Translations under genes and position numbers: made by a program
DNA from: Chitinophaga lutea
Lineage (GTDB): Bacteria; Bacteroidota; Bacteroidia; Chitinophagales; Chitinophagaceae
Reading direction: 5' to 3'
Length of the DNA: 64,000 nucleotides
NCBI RefSeq assembly: GCF_003813775.1
Contig: NZ_RPDH01000001.1
Location: forward strand, 496,001 to 560,000
The notes under the pieces: generated by a model
What the model was told of the DNA's origin: nothing
Seen by the model: the letters and a program-made list of their open reading frames with translations, nothing else
Databases searched by the model: none
Shown here: piece after piece, positions 4,146 through 47,534 of the stretch
Numbering within the stretch: position 1 is the first letter of the stretch
Layout of the letters: each line of letters opens with the position of its first letter

Positions 4146-5777
4146 ATGTCCACGCAAAGTAAACAAGGTACGCATCCCTCGTTTTTTGTACTCGTCCTGG
4201 TATTCTTCTTCTGGGGGTTTGTGGCTGCATCCAACAGCATTCTCATCCCCTTTTGCAAAGCCCATTTCGATCTTACACAGATTCAGTCGCAGCTGGTAGA
4301 CTTCGCCTTTTACGGCGCCTACTTCGTGGGCTCGCTGGTATTGTACCTGTTATCCGCCTTCAAGGGCGTGGACATCCTCAATCGCATCGGTTTCAAAAAA
4401 GGTATTATATACGGCCTGATCATTTCAGGTGTGGGCGCCGCGGCCACTATCGGCGCGGTGAACATCGGGCTGGGCATGGAAGATAAAACCAGCGCCTTCT
4501 ACCTGATCCTCGGCGCTTATTTCATCGTGGCCCTCGGTTTCTCCCTGCAGCAAACGGCGGCCAACCCGTTCGCCATCCTGCTGGGCGACCCGGCTACCGG
4601 GGCGCACCGCCTCAACCTCGCCGGCGGCGTAAACTCCTTCGGTACCACCATCGGCCCCCTCATCGTGAGCCTGTTGCTCTTCGGCACCGCGCAGGACGCA
4701 GCGGCGGTGGGTGATACGGACATCAGCAAAATCAACGTATTATATATATCCCTGGTAGCGCTCTTCCTGCTCGCCGCCGGTATATTCGCGGCCACCAAAA
4801 TGCCGAAGGGCACGGAAGACGATCACTTTGAAGCATCGTCCAAAGCCACCTACACCCTGCTGGGCATCACCGTGATGTTCGTGCTCATCCTGATCGGTAT
4901 CATCGTGGAAAAACCATTGCCTTTCTTCATTGCCGGCATCGTGGGCATCCTCTGCATTCTTTTCTACGCGCAGATCGCTTCCCGCAACGACGGCAACGGC
5001 TGGGGCGCCATGAAATACCCGCAGCTCATCATGGGCATGATCGCCATCTTCGTTTACGTGGGCGTGGAAGTGAGCGTGTCCAGCAACCTGGGCGAGCTCC
5101 TGAAAAAACCCGGCTTCCTCACCATGGAAGGTCTCAACGAATCACAGCTCAGCCCCTACATCGCCATCTTCTGGGGCGGTCTGATGATCGGCCGGTGGAC
5201 GGGCGCCATCAGCGTGTTCAACCTCAGCAAAGGCACCCGCCAGGTACTCTCCGTGATCGTGCCCTTTGTGGCCTACGGCGTGATCCTCGGCGTGAATCAT
5301 TTAAAAGGCAACGACATCAGCCAGCTGTATCCCTTCGCGATCTGTGTGGCCATCCAGATACTCGGCTTCTTCTACGGCCAGGATAAACCCGCCAAAACCC
5401 TCATGACCTTCGGTATCATGGGCGTTGCGGCCATGCTCATCGGTCTGTTCACCGAGGGCCAGGTAGCCACCTTCGCCTTCATCAGCGGCGGTCTTTTCTG
5501 CTCCGTGATGTGGCCCTGTATCTTTTCACTGTCTATCGCCGGGCTCGGCAAATACACCGGCCAGGGCGCTTCTTTCCTCGTGATGATGATCCTCGGCGGC
5601 GCGCTCGTTCCGCCATTACAGGGCGGTTTGGTAGATATCCCTGAAATTGGCGCACATCATTCGTATATTGTACCGGTAATCTGTTTTGCATACTTAGCAT
5701 TTTTTGCAATACGCGTTAAATCAATCTTAAAATCTCAGGGAATCGACTATGAGTCAGCAATTAGCGGTGGGCATTGA
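4146..5777 (+). CDS. Sugar MFS transporter, FucP family, long variant
   Basis: This is a 543-residue inner-membrane MFS permease. It is longer than the 443-residue divergent neighbour because of an extended central loop and extra hydrophobic segments around residues 235-290. FucP-type features include [18 protein letters not shown] at residues 20-37 and [19 protein letters not shown] near 138-156. Its stop lies 29 bp inside the following ROK kinase gene, so import and phosphorylation are probably translationally coupled. The likely role is proton-coupled uptake of a monosaccharide that the kinase then traps. A near-consensus TACATTTA lies at 4104-4111. Specificity cannot be read from sequence. 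Confidence 0.92.
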
Positions 5778-10969: not shown

Positions 10970-11350
10970 TTGACGGAAAGCTCTCCTGTGAAGGGGAGCT
11001 TTTTTATTGCATTGAAGGTTGAAGTAAAAAATAACTGATGAAGTGCGTTCCTGCAAAACAGGCCTCTCTTCTTCTCTCAAGTGACAAAACATAACTGATG
11101 AAAGTTCTCCTGAAAAGGAAAATTCTTTCTCTTTGAAATGAAGTAAAAATCACTGGAGACAAACTCTCCGAAAAGCGAACTTTTTCTCCTCTGAACTGAG
11201 ATAAAAATATCTGATGAAAGCTCTCCTGAAAAGAAGACGCCTTTTTACTTAAAATGAAGTAAAAGTCACTGAAGAAAACTCCCCGCCAAAGCGAACTTTC
11301 TTCTCCATTGAACTGAGATATGAATATCTCATGAAAGCTCTCCTTTAGAG
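10970..11350. repeat. Degenerate tandem array, about 59-bp unit, seven copies
   Basis: Units of the form CTGATGAAAGCTCTCCTGAAAAG...TGAAGTAAAAAT start near 10970, 11035, 11095, 11153, 11211, 11269 and 11328. The later periods are 58-60 bp. Alternate units resemble each other more closely (11153 with 11269, 11211 with 11328), implying duplication of a 116-117-bp dimer. The first and last units form proper terminator hairpins. No coding frame is supported. Confidence 0.8.
10978..11004 (+). terminator. Intrinsic terminator after the EEP gene
   Basis: AAAGCTCTCC (10978-10987) pairs with GGGGAGCTTT through one G-U wobble around a short loop, and a run of T residues follows. It is the first unit of the 59-bp array and lies 20 bp after the EEP stop. 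Confidence 0.75.
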
Positions 11351-24936: not shown

Positions 24937-25143
24937 AAACGTTAGGAGATACAGTGAGTAATAATGCCCATGGCACGGCCGGTCTCATCAAACGGCGGCG
25001 GTCCCTGGGTTCGACAAGGCAATAAAGAGTAGCAGCTTTATTGTAAAAGCGGATTTAATGATTACCTGTGGTAAATAGAAGGAATGTTGACATTGTAAAT
25101 TTGGTTGACGAAGGTGAAGAAATAAATAACGTGTTAATGCTTG

Positions 25144-25216
25144 GCGATTCAGTTAATGCGATTCAAGATTCAGTCTCAATTAATGCGATTCAATAAGTTT
25201 AGGTAAAAGCGATTTA
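25144..25216. promoter_or_regulatory. Four GCGATTYA direct repeats upstream of the sus operon
   Basis: GCGATTCA occurs at 25144-25151, 25158-25165 and 25185-25192, and GCGATTTA at 25209-25216. Two of them share the longer TTAATGCGATTCAA (25153-25166, 25180-25193). AraC-type DNA-binding domains, as in the HTCS, commonly bind direct repeats, so this is a candidate activator site for the sus genes. Confidence 0.45.
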
Positions 25217-25879
25217 GTTCATTGAAAACAAAAATGCGGACTGCTGTCAAAAAGGAGGGCTGTAATCGTTAAAAAAAGGGCTGTTTTTATAAATGCCCCT
25301 TAAATCATTGTTTTTCAATTAAATACAAAGCATAAAACAAGACGTTTTTACAATCTCCGGACAGGGCATTTTTTGCTACACCGTTGTAGTGGATCGTGGA
25401 TTGCTTTAAAAAAGCGGGCGGTGAGGTGGGGTTGGAAGCCGGATTATGGATATGGCGACTTTGTTGAAGACGTCTTTTATTCGGGTTGGGACAACTTCAC
25501 GGGCAATTCATATTATTAAGATATTCTGAGTGTCAGGGCAAGACGGCCAGTCCTTTTATTCAATATAGAGGTCCGGGTTCTCTGTGCGTATTCCGGTTCG
25601 GAGGTGGAATAGAAAGGCGGGTGCGGCGGGAATGATTCAGCAAAAAGGCGGGGTACATAAAGGTACTGGTTGGAAAGTGGTGTGTAGGGATGGGTGGATA
25701 AGAGTTCCATCTTGGATTGGGCGGTGGGGAAACGAAGAGTGTAATGGGTGATGGATGGAAAAAGAAAATGGTGCAGGGTGGAAAATGGCGTGTTGGGGAT
25801 TGGCGAATGGAGGTGCGATAAAGGCTCAGGTGGAAAATGAAATGTTAAGGATTGGCAGCCGAGCAGCGAAAATGGTTCT

Positions 25880-26064
25880 GGCCGGAAAAGGCGCGTTTGA
25901 GGGATTGGCAGATTGGAGAAGAGAAAAAGATCCGGACGGGAGGGTCGGCAGCAGGGAAACGGAAAAAGGTTGCGGCCGGAAAAGGCGCGTTTGAGGGATT
26001 GGCAGATTGGAGAAGAGAAAAAGATCCGGACGGGAGGGTTGGCAGCAGGGAAACGGAAAAAGGT
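25880..26064. repeat. Near-perfect 94-bp tandem duplication, purine-rich
   Basis: Bases 25880-25970 and 25974-26064 are identical apart from one C/T difference near position 70 of the unit, giving a 94-bp period. Fainter relatives flank them on both sides. The unit begins GGCCGGAAAAGGCGCG. Near-identity implies a recent duplication. Confidence 0.85.
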
Positions 26065-26357
26065 CCGGGTTTGAAAATGGGCGACTGGGAATTGATGGGT
26101 GGAAAACGAAACGGTTCCAGCTCGAAAGTGGCAGCCGGAAAATTGTCAGATTGAAAAATGAAAGGTGCCGGTTGCAAACTGAGGGAAAATGAAGGAAAGA
26201 ATATGAGCCCCGGGATTACCGGGTCCTGCCTCGGGCTTAATAGAATTGATTCAAACGGTACGAACAGCCCCTCATGTCCCCTATTCAACAGCCTCCTATC
26301 CCCATAACACGCTACATTCCCACCCCCATTCCCCCTCCCCATCCGGTCATCAAATTA

Positions 26358-38058: not shown

Positions 38059-39021
38059 ATGGCACAACAAGTGGAGTTACTCATCGTAGGCGGAGGGCCG
38101 ATAGGAATGGCATGTGCGCTGGCGGCGCAGAAAGCGGGCATCGACTACCTGATCGTGGAAAAAGGATGCCTCGTCAATTCCCTCTACCGCTACCCCATCA
38201 ACATGACCTTTTTCTCCACCAGCGAAAGGCTCGAGATCGGCGGCGTTCCTTTTGTGTCCAACAACGCCAAACCCACACGGCCCGAAGCGCTGGAGTATTA
38301 CCGAAGGGTGGCGTCTTCGCAGCATATCCGCATCCGTCTCTTCGAAAAAGTGGAAAACGTGCGGCCGAACGATAACGGGTACACGGTGATCACCGGCAAG
38401 GAAATTTACCATACGCGGTTCATCATTATCGCCACCGGTTTTTATGATATTCCCAACCTGCTCAATATCCCCGGCGAAGACCTCGCCAAGGTCACCCACT
38501 ACTACAAAGACCCGCACTATTACGCCACTCAGAAAGTGGTAGTGGTGGGCGCGAACAATTCTTCCGTAGACGCCGCGCTCGAAACCTATCGCAAAGGCGC
38601 CGACGTGACGATGGTCATCCGGGAAGGAGAAATCGGGAAGCGCGTGAAATACTGGGTGAAACCCGATATCGAAAACCGCATCAGGGAAGGGAGCATCAAA
38701 GCCTACTTTCATTCCACGCTGACCGCCATTCACGACAATTCTGTAGACATCCGCACACCGGACGGCTCCGTGACCATCCCTAACGATTTTGTGATTGCCG
38801 CTACGGGGTATCAGCCCGATTTTAATTTCCTGGAGAAAACGGGGATTACCTTATCCGCAGACGCCGTGAGGAGCCCGTCGTACAACCCGGACACGATGGA
38901 AACCAACCTGCCGGGCGTGTACCTCGCCGGTGTGGTATGCGGCGGCATGAACACGCACATCTGGTTCATCGAAAATTCAAGGGAGCACGCGGATAAGATC
39001 ATTGCGCATATCCGCGGGTAA
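38059..39021 (+). CDS. YpdA-like FAD/NAD(P)-dependent disulfide reductase
   Basis: This is a 320-residue flavoprotein of the thioredoxin-reductase-like fold. The FAD loop is GGGPIG (residues 11-16), the NAD(P)H loop is VVVGANNSSVDAAL (about 163-176), and a late ATGYQPDF precedes GVYLAGVVCGGMNT. YpdA enzymes reduce bacillithiol disulfide, and bacillithiol occurs in Bacteroidota. It lacks the thioredoxin-reductase CxxC, as expected for YpdA. It is the last gene of the five-gene run, and no clear terminator immediately follows. Confidence 0.88.
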   Translation: MAQQVELLIVGGGPIGMACALAAQKAGIDYLIVEKGCLVNSLYRYPINMTFFSTSERLEIGGVPFVSNNAKPTRPEALEYYRRVASSQHIRIRLFEKVENVRPNDNGYTVITGKEIYHTRFIIIATGFYDIPNLLNIPGEDLAKVTHYYKDPHYYATQKVVVVGANNSSVDAALETYRKGADVTMVIREGEIGKRVKYWVKPDIENRIREGSIKAYFHSTLTAIHDNSVDIRTPDGSVTIPNDFVIAATGYQPDFNFLEKTGITLSADAVRSPSYNPDTMETNLPGVYLAGVVCGGMNTHIWFIENSREHADKIIAHIRG

Positions 39022-39144
39022 AATGAAAACTTTCATGAAAGCCACCGAAATTGTTCACATGAGATCATTACACATATTCATGGGAGATCCGAAGTTTTTC
39101 AGCATGTCACTGAAAAAAATCACTATACAAACAGGAATTTTCAG

Positions 39145-39152
39145 TATATTTG
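39145..39152 (+). promoter_or_regulatory. -7 promoter element for the small RNA next to the DUF3800 gene
   Basis: TATATTTG matches the Bacteroidota TAnnTTTG element and would start transcription near 39158-39160, just before the first hairpin of the candidate RNA. No obvious -33 TTTG is seen. Confidence 0.5.
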
Positions 39153-39157
39153 TACCA

Positions 39158-39241
39158 ACAAAGGGCAATTGCCCTTAAATTCTTGGACCGGGGTGTCCCC
39201 GATCGGTATAAAGCCAGGCGTAAGTCTGGCTTTATACTTTT
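39158..39241 (+). ncRNA. Candidate structured small RNA convergent with a DUF3800 gene
   Basis: About 84 nt between a promoter element and a terminator, with no reading frame. Three stems are visible. AAGGGCAATTGCCCTT is a 16-nt palindrome (39161-39176). CGGGG-TGT-CCCCG (39189-39201) has possible outer ACC/GGT pairing. TATAAAGCCAG pairs perfectly with its complement (39207-39217 and 39226-39236) around loop GCGTAAGT, followed by CTTTT as terminator. It ends against the stop codon of the DUF3800 gene on the other strand. Candidate structured RNAs associated with DUF3800 genes have been described by comparative genomics, and this may be a member or a new class. Confidence 0.5.
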
Positions 39242-39974
39242 AGGGATATACTTTCAACCCGTAAAGGTTTCCTTTCTTCGTGTAAATTTTGTTTCGGATA
39301 AGCTCGTAAGGTAAATTGGGCCTGTGCTCTTCAATCACGTACCGCGCTATCGGATAAGCAATTAAATCCGCCAACTGCAATCCATTTATATTTTCACGCT
39401 TGCTTTTAAAGGAAATTGAGAGCCTGCATCCCTTTAGCCTTTCAGGCGTAATATAACCCGTTCCCCGTGCTAAAAGACGTTGAAAGTGTTCATGCAACTC
39501 GCGGTCTTCTTTTAGTCCTCTTTTCTCTATAATAATCTGCAATTCCTTTTGATCGTCCCTGATGTCGTCAAGGAAGAAAATAGTCCGCTCTATGATAAAC
39601 GACAGTGCAATTTCATACACATCGTTTCCAAGGCGTCCGAACCTGTTAATATACTTGTCTTTTCTTATGGCCGACGCGAAAACCGTATAGTTATTTTCAC
39701 GTACAACATCGTTGATACGCTCATAAAACCGCTGTTTTTTTTCGAGGTCAAACAGCACACTAAACTCCTTCTCACATTTCCGGATATCACGCGAGTGAAA
39801 GATTACATGAATGTTATTCCAAAACTCCAGTTTGACGGCATTGATGCTATTTCTGATTGCCTGATAGTCATTCTCCTGTACCAATACCCCGCATAACAAA
39901 AACACAGGGAACCGGTCGTCCACCTGCGTTAATCCATGGTCGCCACTTTCGTCCATGTACAAACAATATTTCAT
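39240..39974 (-). CDS. DUF3800 domain protein, probable RNase H-fold nuclease
   Basis: This 244-residue protein is a DUF3800 family member. The N-terminal YMDESGDHG (residues 6-14) and the C-terminal LQLADLIAYPIARY (about 199-212) carry the conserved acidic residues, in an arrangement resembling metal-dependent RNase H-like nucleases. The catalytic function is unproven. The gene is clearly more AT-rich than the neighbouring housekeeping genes, stands alone, and is convergent with a candidate structured RNA, so horizontal acquisition is likely. A GATTTG/CAAATC inverted repeat (39981-39986 and 39997-40002) lies 7 bp before the ATG and may be an autoregulatory site. DUF3800 genes are common in mobile and defence-associated contexts. 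Confidence 0.85.
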   Translation of the reverse strand: MKYCLYMDESGDHGLTQVDDRFPVFLLCGVLVQENDYQAIRNSINAVKLEFWNNIHVIFHSRDIRKCEKEFSVLFDLEKKQRFYERINDVVRENNYTVFASAIRKDKYINRFGRLGNDVYEIALSFIIERTIFFLDDIRDDQKELQIIIEKRGLKEDRELHEHFQRLLARGTGYITPERLKGCRLSISFKSKRENINGLQLADLIAYPIARYVIEEHRPNLPYELIRNKIYTKKGNLYGLKVYP

Positions 39975-40039
39975 GAATTTGATTTGTAGTTCGGATCAAA
40001 TCCATCTTCGGCTAATTGGAAACAATAAAATTAAATAAA

Positions 40040-41056
40040 TCACACCACATTCACTTCCCGCTCCAGTACCACGCCGAATTTTTCTTCCACGCTTTGCAGC
40101 ACTTTCGTAGAGAGGTTGTAAATGTCCGCGCCCTGTGCGTTCCCGTAATTGACCAGCACCAGCGCCTGGCGGGCATGTACGCCGGCATCGCCTTCGCGGT
40201 AGCCTTTCCAGCCGCATTGTTCGATCAGCCAGCCTGCGGCAAGTTTGAAGTGATGGCCGGGTAAGGGGTACGCCACCACGTCGGGGAACGCCACTTTCAA
40301 TTGTTCGTATTTTTCCGCGCTCACTTCCGGGTTTTTGAAGAAGCTGCCGGCATTGCCGATTTCGGCGGGGTTAGGCAGTTTGGAAGAACGGATATGGATA
40401 ACGGCCTGGCTCACGTCGCGGATGGTGGGTGCGGTGATGCCCATTTTGGCCAGCTCCTGCTCGATGGCGCCGTAGGTGGTGTTGACTACCGGTTTTTTAT
40501 GCAGCCGGTAAGTGACGTTGAGGATCACGAACCGGTTTTTAAACTGCCGTTTGAATACACTTTCGCGGTAACCGAATTCGCAGGCGGCATTGTCGAAGCG
40601 GACGGGCAGCAGGGTATCCAGGTTGAGGGCTTCCAGTTCCCAGAAGGTGTCTTTGATTTCCACGCCGTATGCGCCGATGTTCTGCATGGGGCTGGCGCCT
40701 ACATTGCCGGGTATCAGCGAAAGGTTTTCGAGGCCGCCGAGGTCTTTACCGATGCAATGCATCACGAACTGGTGCCAGTTTTCGCCGGCGCCGGCATTGA
40801 TGTACACATAGTCGTCGTCTTCCCCCACCACGTGTATGCCTTTGATCTCGTTTTTTAATACGAGCCCGTCGAAATCCTTTGTCAGCAGCAGGTTACTGCC
40901 GCCGCCGAGGATCATTTTCGGCGTATCGCGCCAGCGTTCGTCGCGGAGGATCTGCTGCAGCGCTTCGGTGGAGTGGAATGCGGCGAAATAACGCGCCGTG
41001 GCATTCAGGCTGAAAGTATTGTATGGGCGGAGAGAAACATTTTCGTTGACCGTCAT
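40040..41056 (-). CDS. murB: UDP-N-acetylmuramate dehydrogenase
   Basis: This FAD- and NADPH-dependent cytoplasmic enzyme reduces UDP-GlcNAc-enolpyruvate to UDP-MurNAc in peptidoglycan synthesis. It has 338 residues, starting at MTVNENVSLRPYNTF. The FAD-binding segment has MILGGGSNLLL (about 47-57) and SLIPGNVGASPMQNIGAYGVE. The proton-donor serine is in NAGSFFKNP. The C-terminal AGWLIEQCGWKGYREGDAGVH and LEREVNVV are typical of the E. coli-like type I enzyme. The long in-frame extension upstream of the ATG at 41056 overlaps the divergent gene and is not coding. A minus-strand TATATTTG lies 38-45 bp before the start. Confidence 0.96.
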   Translation of the reverse strand: MTVNENVSLRPYNTFSLNATARYFAAFHSTEALQQILRDERWRDTPKMILGGGSNLLLTKDFDGLVLKNEIKGIHVVGEDDDYVYINAGAGENWHQFVMHCIGKDLGGLENLSLIPGNVGASPMQNIGAYGVEIKDTFWELEALNLDTLLPVRFDNAACEFGYRESVFKRQFKNRFVILNVTYRLHKKPVVNTTYGAIEQELAKMGITAPTIRDVSQAVIHIRSSKLPNPAEIGNAGSFFKNPEVSAEKYEQLKVAFPDVVAYPLPGHHFKLAAGWLIEQCGWKGYREGDAGVHARQALVLVNYGNAQGADIYNLSTKVLQSVEEKFGVVLEREVNVV

Positions 41057-47319: not shown

Positions 47320-47320
47320 G

Positions 47321-47395
47321 TGGGAGTTGACGGGGTCGAACCGCCGACCCTCTGCTTGTAAGGCAGATGCTCTGAACCAACTGAGCTAAACTCCC
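47321..47395 (-). tRNA. tRNA-Val (anticodon TAC), copy 2
   Basis: On the minus strand the 75-nt cloverleaf starts GGGAGTTTAGCTCAG and has anticodon loop CTTACAA (anticodon TAC) between TCTGC/GCAGA arms. It has a GTTCGAC T-loop and a GGGAG/CTCCC acceptor with discriminator A. CCA is not encoded. It is identical to the copy at 47460-47534. Confidence 0.96.
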
Positions 47396-47459
47396 GGAAT
47401 GGTAAGATCTTTTGAAACTTTTCCGACGACAGCGTTCCGGTGCTGCTGGAGAAGTGATG

Positions 47460-47534
47460 TGGGAGTTGACGGGGTCGAACCGCCGACCCTCTGCTTGTAA
47501 GGCAGATGCTCTGAACCAACTGAGCTAAACTCCC
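47460..47534 (-). tRNA. tRNA-Val (anticodon TAC), copy 1
   Basis: This has the same 75-nt sequence as the copy at 47321-47395, separated from it by a 64-bp spacer. It lies first in the transcript, about 40 nt from the expected start of a consensus promoter. Confidence 0.96.

Follow-up and report, generated by a model that had tools for sequence, protein, structure and literature searches.

The DUF3800 locus and its small RNA

The stretch of DNA analyzed here, hereafter the window, comprises 64,000 nucleotides of the Chitinophaga lutea genome (contig NZ_RPDH01000001.1, positions 496,001 to 560,000), and contains a gene of the DUF3800 family that converges, tail to tail, with a small structured RNA. 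The elements of the locus are as follows:

39145-39152, plus strand: promoter element TATATTTG, from the count of TATNTTTGTACC and a reading of the sequence
About 39157-39241, plus strand: small RNA, a candidate from sequence and folding, its start estimated from the promoter element
39161-39176, plus strand: palindrome of 16 nucleotides (5' hairpin), its sequence not kept in relatives
39186-39204, plus strand: core hairpin GACCGGGGTGTCCCCGATC, the conserved and apparently phage-mimicked part, from comparison and covariation
39206-39241, plus strand: terminator hairpin and T run, overlapping the DUF3800 stop codon by two bases
39240-39974, minus strand: DUF3800 gene, 244 amino acids, predicted RNase HII-like fold, from Pfam, fold prediction and alignment

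An earlier note on this DNA had described an AT-rich DUF3800 gene convergent with a structured small RNA, and Pfam, base composition and folding all bear this description out; the promoter element, the 16-nucleotide palindrome, the core hairpin and the terminator that it placed on the plus strand are all present. TATNTTTGTACC occurs once in the 64 kb, against a mean of 0.01 over 100 shuffles, and TATATTTG is what we take to be a promoter element of the Bacteroidota -7 type. The terminator stem (39206-39217 with 39226-39237) has 12 base pairs rather than the 11 first counted, and encloses the loop GCGTAAGT (39218-39225) ahead of TTTT at 39238-39241. The segment 39152-39241 folds at -42.7 kcal/mol, against -22.3 (standard deviation 3.1) for shuffled sequences (z -6.5; 0 of 200 as low), and its minus strand folds too (z -6.15). 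A simple scan for sigma-70 promoters and terminators detected neither element of the small RNA, which was counted against the elements noted; it missed them because the promoter is of another type and the T run is just four bases long. An inverted repeat that had been pointed out ahead of the DUF3800 start is rejected as a functional element, being not above chance (z +0.66 on the gene strand, -1.10 on the other) and absent in both relatives compared.

None of the 4227 Rfam models matches the window RNA at its gathering score. The five matches up to E 10 are all to unrelated families, below their gathering scores, and they include neither the abiF motif (RF03085) nor any DUF3800 RNA family, the type of match that had been envisaged for a covariance-model search. 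DUF3800-I (RF02969) was also rejected in a separate search that covered seven records (four plasmids and three Chitinophaga genomes, out of 15 chosen loci), in all of which it fell below the cut-off. Membership in a repeat family was rejected as well: the whole RNA is single-copy in its own genome, and other matches are partial, self-overlapping or at chance level. A narrower hairpin pattern with one mismatch allowed found the window copy alone.

The 244-residue product matches PF12686 with 67.4 bits (cut-off 21; E = 3e-18), its sole Pfam family above cut-off, and shows no match to Abi_2 in Pfam. The suggestion that DUF3800 proteins have an RNase H fold agrees with its predicted model, whose top fold matches are RNase HII, and with a conserved acidic tetrad, D8, E9, E150 and D203; in a diverse alignment D8 is found in 26 of 26 sequences, E9 in 25 (one D), E150 in 24 (two D) and D203 in 26. 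The protein is hence predicted, from model and alignment, to be an RNase HII-like member of the RNase H superfamily, with the tetrad as its probable catalytic set. A sequence search of solved structures found no relative (one unrelated chain, E 0.07), PHROGs yielded no family for the window protein, and its nearest named relatives are in Chitinophaga.

Gene and RNA lie in an AT-rich cassette of about 1 kb (GC 0.41 in 39001-40000, against 0.54-0.55 in both adjoining kilobases) between an oxidoreductase-like gene (38059-39021) and a murB-like gene ending at 40040, both named from the sequence by eye. The oxidoreductase gene was detected in 20 of 21 genomes of the genus. Among 12 same-genus loci examined, the cassette is present in two, that of C. 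lutea itself and that of genome G768; at the other ten both flanking genes are adjacent, with neither DUF3800 nor hairpin, and at one cassette-free locus (L284) about four bases separate the matched ends of the flanking genes. DUF3800 relatives at three further loci (L018, L019, L020) have different flanking genes. The presence of the cassette at two of 12 loci, with its neighbors joined without it at ten, supports the view that it is mobile and was acquired horizontally, as the earlier note had supposed.

A conserved hairpin paired with DUF3800 genes

A hairpin of the form GGAYY-GGG(loop)CCC-GRUCG (motif A) occupies the same position behind DUF3800 genes in Bacteroidota and Proteobacteria, and a Brevibacillus plasmid has a variant of it. 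It is convergent with DUF3800 in C. alhagiae, Chitinophaga SYP-B3965, an Aureispira metagenome-assembled genome, C. cymbidii and genome G277. A tblastn search with the DUF3800 protein matched 68 records (63 plasmid, 5 phage), of which 11 were examined. Ten of these have a hairpin of the same shape and place past the stop codon, namely records from Devosia, Methylorubrum, Bradyrhizobium, Sinorhizobium, Acinetobacter, Paraburkholderia, Novosphingobium and Paracoccus phage Pkon1, together with Pseudomonas phage JBD68 and Brevibacillus, where its sequence is much changed; the remaining one, a Latilactobacillus phage, has no such hairpin behind DUF3800.

A profile of the protein clade, searched against 395 genomes of the phylum, detected 26 places in 24 of them. 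Their flanks, read by eye, contain the hairpin at 13 places, an RNA of class D at five, one of class E at four and no recognized class at three, with one place cut by a contig end; the RNA classes A to E were named and assigned by eye in this analysis. The class D RNA has the form UAAUCC-stem-GGAGGUGGA or a near variant. Class E was seen in the 3' flanks of divergent DUF3800 genes at L085, L086, L087 and L089, and includes the stretch GGGGTTTGCG.TAAG.AGC.A.CCGACA.

Across 18 distinct hairpins 96.8% of the cells in the arms pair and four of the seven pairs show two-sided change, values reached in 0 of 500 shuffles, with a bias towards pairing in that the arms were chosen from predicted folds. 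The typed arms were compared without loops and with identical rows merged; a whole-hairpin MAFFT alignment shifted the shorter loops. Two of the seven pairs are invariant, and at two U-G is the commonest pair type.

On a tree of 46 DUF3800 proteins, in which four rows without a recognized class were uncounted and the row of L020 is misframed because that gene is broken, the five RNA classes on 42 labeled rows require four changes, the minimum possible, against a mean of 13.5 with shuffled class labels (0 of 200 as low as four). RNA class follows protein clade, which shows co-inheritance rather than binding, as shared descent yields part of the match. The RNA-gene pairing is well supported. The earlier note's idea of a two-part unit stands up on three counts: the arrangement is convergent in unrelated genomes, the hairpin covaries and RNA class follows protein clade. 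That note had also named want of conservation beside other DUF3800 genes as a ground for giving up the idea, and the hairpin is conserved there.

One role proposed for such a unit, that of an RNA-guided nuclease, is disfavored and here rejected. A promoter-like box lies a few bases before the hairpin in most flanks read, so that the RNA in these would consist of hairpin and terminator with no room for a guide. The extra length at the 5' end of the window RNA is a local addition, with no sequence conservation among relatives.

Hairpins without the protein

The pattern GGAYYGGGN{3,5}CCCGRTCG occurs at 39 places in 33 of the 395 genomes of the phylum, against 8 for a reversed control (column count). 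Thirty of the 39 places were examined. Eight are complete pairs with a DUF3800 frame of about 197 amino acids or more, and two have a truncated or decayed DUF3800 gene (L259, L266). Another eight retain hairpin and terminator with no DUF3800 found by tblastn, the flank of one (L265) extending just about 480 bases, and 12 look like chance. In C. cymbidii the DUF3800 gene is broken and the hairpin intact, and at L009 and L011 the hairpin is present but no DUF3800 gene could be detected. At L009 (660-1448 and about 1500-1560) a gene pair that looks HigB/HigA-like by eye converges on the motif A RNA in the place expected of DUF3800.

Copies of the hairpin in phages

The main finding, unforeseen in the earlier note, is that phages carry copies of the hairpin. 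A general pattern, GGAYTGGGNNNNYCCCGGTCG, was detected in at least 120 virus contigs and its reversed form, as a control, in 17; merging 34 of the 120 copies as identical in their flanks leaves 86 distinct ones. By a crude call, in which any open reading frame (ORF) of at least 80 amino acids counts as coding, 58 of the 86 are intergenic, against 3 of 15 control matches (Fisher p 0.001), and 28 are coding, partly through antisense ORFs. Of the intergenic copies, 23 lie within 30 bases past a stop codon and 35 have a downstream T run. The exact string GGGGTGTCCCCGATCG was found in 19 virus contigs and is preceded by GGAYY in 15; those without GGAYY (L026, L031, L032, L034) look like chance.

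The copies occur in diverse settings. In 14 of the 86 the hairpin stands behind a capsid-like C-terminus, and at L143 the upstream gene resembles capsid genes; at L105 and L117 it lies inside terminator loops, and at L173, a locus identical to Flavobacterium phage immuto, between genes for tRNA-Glu and tRNA-Gln. At two further loci (L099 near 5237; L153, minus strand, near 4912) it resembles an arm added to a tRNA-like fold or substituted for one of its arms, an arrangement that would display it stably.

Such placements bear on the possibility that the hairpin is a recombination or insertion site in DNA rather than an RNA element. Its location at the edge of a mobile cassette is what such a site would predict; the promoter element and terminator that frame it, the prevalence of U-G at two of seven pairs, a mark of RNA, and its position between two tRNA genes in immuto render this explanation highly improbable.

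A DUF3800 frame is present in 8 of 140 motif A virus loci, partly as near-copies or fragments. PF12686 was found in 6 of 50 virus records searched whole, the same six that bear DUF3800 beside the hairpin, and in 2 of 30 virus records with motif A or B; it was not found in a record of 160,410 bases (the size of immuto) or in SPbeta-like records of 121-141 kb. A close-relative search of virus contigs found no DUF3800 belonging to the window clade, yet one is present in both L116 and L138, to which the hairpin had led. Among the virus loci scanned, no Rfam family coincides with the hairpin; Rfam identified a transfer-messenger RNA in L172 (2169-2485) and a Betaproteobacteria-1 sRNA in L126 (816-940), neither of which overlaps the hairpin. 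By blastn, the window RNA, the array of L041 and L117 match no named phage. The hairpin is absent from the stretches examined of four named phages with an L143-like capsid region and of two Bacteroides phages.

It is conceivable that the hairpin is a phage signature sensed by DUF3800, that it serves the phages in some other way and that the cassette RNA tunes the sensor; the occurrence of the hairpin in many kinds of phages speaks for this. However, the identical hairpin of the cassette itself would trigger the sensor, phages seem to have acquired the hairpin repeatedly for its own sake, judging by how varied its settings are, and it is absent from the stretches examined of four named relatives whose capsid gene is similar; we regard a sensor of this kind as unlikely.

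Other motifs and RNA arrays

The Aureispira RNA has another element ahead of the hairpin, motif B, a possible pseudoknot of the form CUACAAAGGUUU...UGAACCCGYAAUCA. At L056 and L060 motif B stands behind a small ORF and a DUF3800 of a different subfamily, assigned in L056 to a PHROG of unknown function; in virus contigs the L056-type DUF3800 was found in the known contig only. A seemingly divergent motif B was noticed by eye at L045, and under a relaxed pattern motifs A and B lie at most 1.5 kb apart in virus loci L029, L041, L151 and L181. The strict motif B pattern is present in 18 virus contigs, mostly SPbeta-like as judged from L048, which is similar to SPbeta and related phages: L048 matches 38 Bacillus phage records, and in 24 the match covers about half of the stretch or more. 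Rfam DUF3800-VIII directly follows motif B in 9 of 15 scanned contigs, L056 and L060 not being among them.

The SPBc2 counterpart of the L048 stretch lies between yonN and yonK and is without an annotated feature; about 1.2 kb at this place (L090 4001-5216) is a conserved non-coding stretch in SPbeta-like phages. Single pieces of the stretch recur in SIOphi-like phages, phi18-2 and KLEB27-3, and for this reason it looks like an array assembled from interchangeable RNA units. Class D was found in six virus loci: in one a DUF3800 lies behind the RNA, and in five (two sequence families) a promoter-like stretch comes right before the RNA and the locus has no DUF3800 frame. In this small set class D appears to repeat the division between DUF3800 loci and phage-only loci.

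This division has to be set against the notion of a general phage or host element, such as a 3'-end stabilizer or a processing or binding site for some other protein, whose adjacency to DUF3800 would be unrelated. Thirty-five of the 58 intergenic phage copies have a downstream T run, many next to or in terminators, as might be expected of such an element. Yet the pattern is rare in Bacteroidota (39 places in 395 genomes; control 8), DUF3800 or its remains persist at 10 of 18 places (those of the 30 examined that do not look like chance), RNA class follows DUF3800 clade, and classes B and D are split in like manner between DUF3800 loci and phage-only loci, all of which make a general element quite improbable.

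Proposed function

We propose that the unit is a mobile two-part module in which a DUF3800 nuclease of the RNase H fold is combined with a short cognate RNA built around a single sequence-specific hairpin and ending in a terminator. This RNA would most likely bind the protein and keep the nuclease inactive in the manner of an antitoxin. Once a phage infects and shuts off host transcription or breaks down RNA, the short-lived cognate RNA would be depleted and the nuclease freed to cut nucleic acid of the cell or the phage, to the harm of either. The phage hairpins sit in messages or other RNAs that are probably plentiful or stable, namely capsid 3' ends, tRNA clusters, terminators and multi-motif arrays, and those without the gene would most likely be antidote mimics that occupy the nuclease and so counteract the module.

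The computational evidence under this proposal consists of the pairing of RNA and gene, the conservation and covariation of the hairpin, the co-inheritance of RNA class and protein clade, the mobility of the cassette, the predicted fold, the RNAs without the protein and the phage copies. A nuclease-like protein, orphan RNAs, gene-less phage copies and arrays are the traces that one would expect of an RNA-restrained nuclease and of phage antidotes to it. We judge the chances about even that the system is such a nuclease, of the toxin-antitoxin or abortive-infection type, with antidote-mimic hairpins in phages. Among the roles put forward in the earlier note, an RNA-inhibited, toxin-antitoxin or defense unit appears to be the best fit, because the RNAs occur without the protein and phages carry copies of them. 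The libraries of hairpins in phages take the form of single copies behind capsid genes or in tRNA clusters and of multi-class arrays in SPbeta-like and marine phages; that DUF3800 modules form a large family of RNA-restrained defense nucleases with several hairpin classes, and that many phage lineages carry matching libraries as antidotes, is a wider claim on which we find the balance level.

Several observations weigh against the proposal. The hairpin sequence is very constant, with most pairs hardly varying, and the number of cells changed on both sides (five) was reached by 38 of 500 shuffles. Classes B and C are represented on the tree by two proteins each. Among 16 distinct virus copies of GGGGTGTCCCCGATCG, eight are intergenic and eight coding by the crude ORF test, and many virus records are fragments, so that a missing DUF3800 does not prove its absence. 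PADLOC has no matching defense family for the protein, its best match being Cas11a at E 0.015. Finally, the RNA could equally be a positive cofactor.

In the last case DUF3800 would require the RNA for its activity or stability in a ribonucleoprotein nuclease, and the phage copies would be competing dead-end ligands, as RNA anti-CRISPRs (Racrs) are for Cas proteins. The same pairing, covariation and phage copies fit this explanation, and Racrs show that phages use competitor RNAs (PMC10651486). Persistence of the RNAs where the protein is decayed or absent is easier to explain for an antidote, and RNA antitoxins of the hairpin-plus-terminator type are known (PMC12373285); we therefore give the cofactor a low though appreciable probability.

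Relationship to known systems

Eleven candidate RNA families, DUF3800-I to -XI, were reportedly described in 2017 and are included in Rfam (RF03075, RF02969 and RF02968 among them). Like the RNA of the window, they are small structured RNAs linked to DUF3800 genes, and DUF3800-VIII adjoins motif B in SPbeta-like phages; the window RNA matches none of their models up to E 10. DUF3800-linked RNAs are thus a known kind, described in the portions of the literature covered only as families or putative non-coding RNAs, with neither a function nor phage mimicry stated there. The literature search, outside which the 2017 description lay, found no paper on phage mimics of DUF3800 RNAs. As far as this literature extends, this family of hairpins, its convergent position in different phyla and how often it occurs in phages are new, though part of this may stand in the 2017 description.

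Type III toxin-antitoxin systems have a tandem-repeat RNA antitoxin upstream of the toxin. The window unit is different from ToxIN in its RNA, which has one core hairpin and is convergent at the 3' end of the gene, and with regard to a ToxN-type toxin fold, only PF12686 exceeded the Pfam cut-off and the best fold matches were RNase HII. Precedents exist for each half of the proposed mechanism, none of them a DUF3800 system. AbiF(Cd) is neutralized in cis and in trans by the RNA antitoxin RCd22 (abiF motif, RF03085) through binding to the protein (PMC12373285). It likewise places an abortive-infection-type protein under a small RNA of conserved hairpins and a terminator, but has an Abi_2 protein, two hairpins and an RNA upstream of the gene, whereas the window unit has a predicted RNase H fold, one core hairpin and an RNA that converges on the 3' end of the gene, and its hairpin is widespread in phages. 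For the second half, phage TE escapes ToxIN through a pseudo-ToxI RNA (PMC3475682, PMC5086642), which offers a parallel of an RNA-restrained nuclease evaded by a mimic RNA, features that the window unit would share, although ToxN appears to come from a different protein family and ToxI consists of tandem repeats. Racrs are solitary phage copies of the small RNA unit of a defense system (PMC10651486), and so resemble the phage hairpins if DUF3800 has a defense role; they mimic CRISPR repeats, whereas the phage hairpins resemble the DUF3800 RNA. Proteins with TPR and DUF3800 linked to Cas12a2 have a predicted RNase H fold and a noted link to non-coding RNA (PMC10910872), while the window protein is a stand-alone one of 244 amino acids with its own hairpin RNA.

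The proposal gives DUF3800 and its RNAs a possible function that can be tested. If true, it would account for non-coding arrays conserved in phages, for example the SPbeta stretch between yonN and yonK, and would extend RNA mimicry by phages beyond pseudo-ToxI and Racrs to another, possibly widespread, system. Short sequence tags are now at hand for finding the module and its possible antidotes.

Other features of the window

Elsewhere in the window, positions 25001-26068 are AT-richer with a strong skew of G over C (0.41 in 25001-26000), and this stretch ends in a tandem repeat (25868-26068) of 2.1 copies of a 94-base unit. A second tandem repeat, at 11087-11281, has a period of 58 and 3.4 copies with 68% matches. 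Two consecutive tRNA-Val (TAC) genes lie on the minus strand at 47320-47534.
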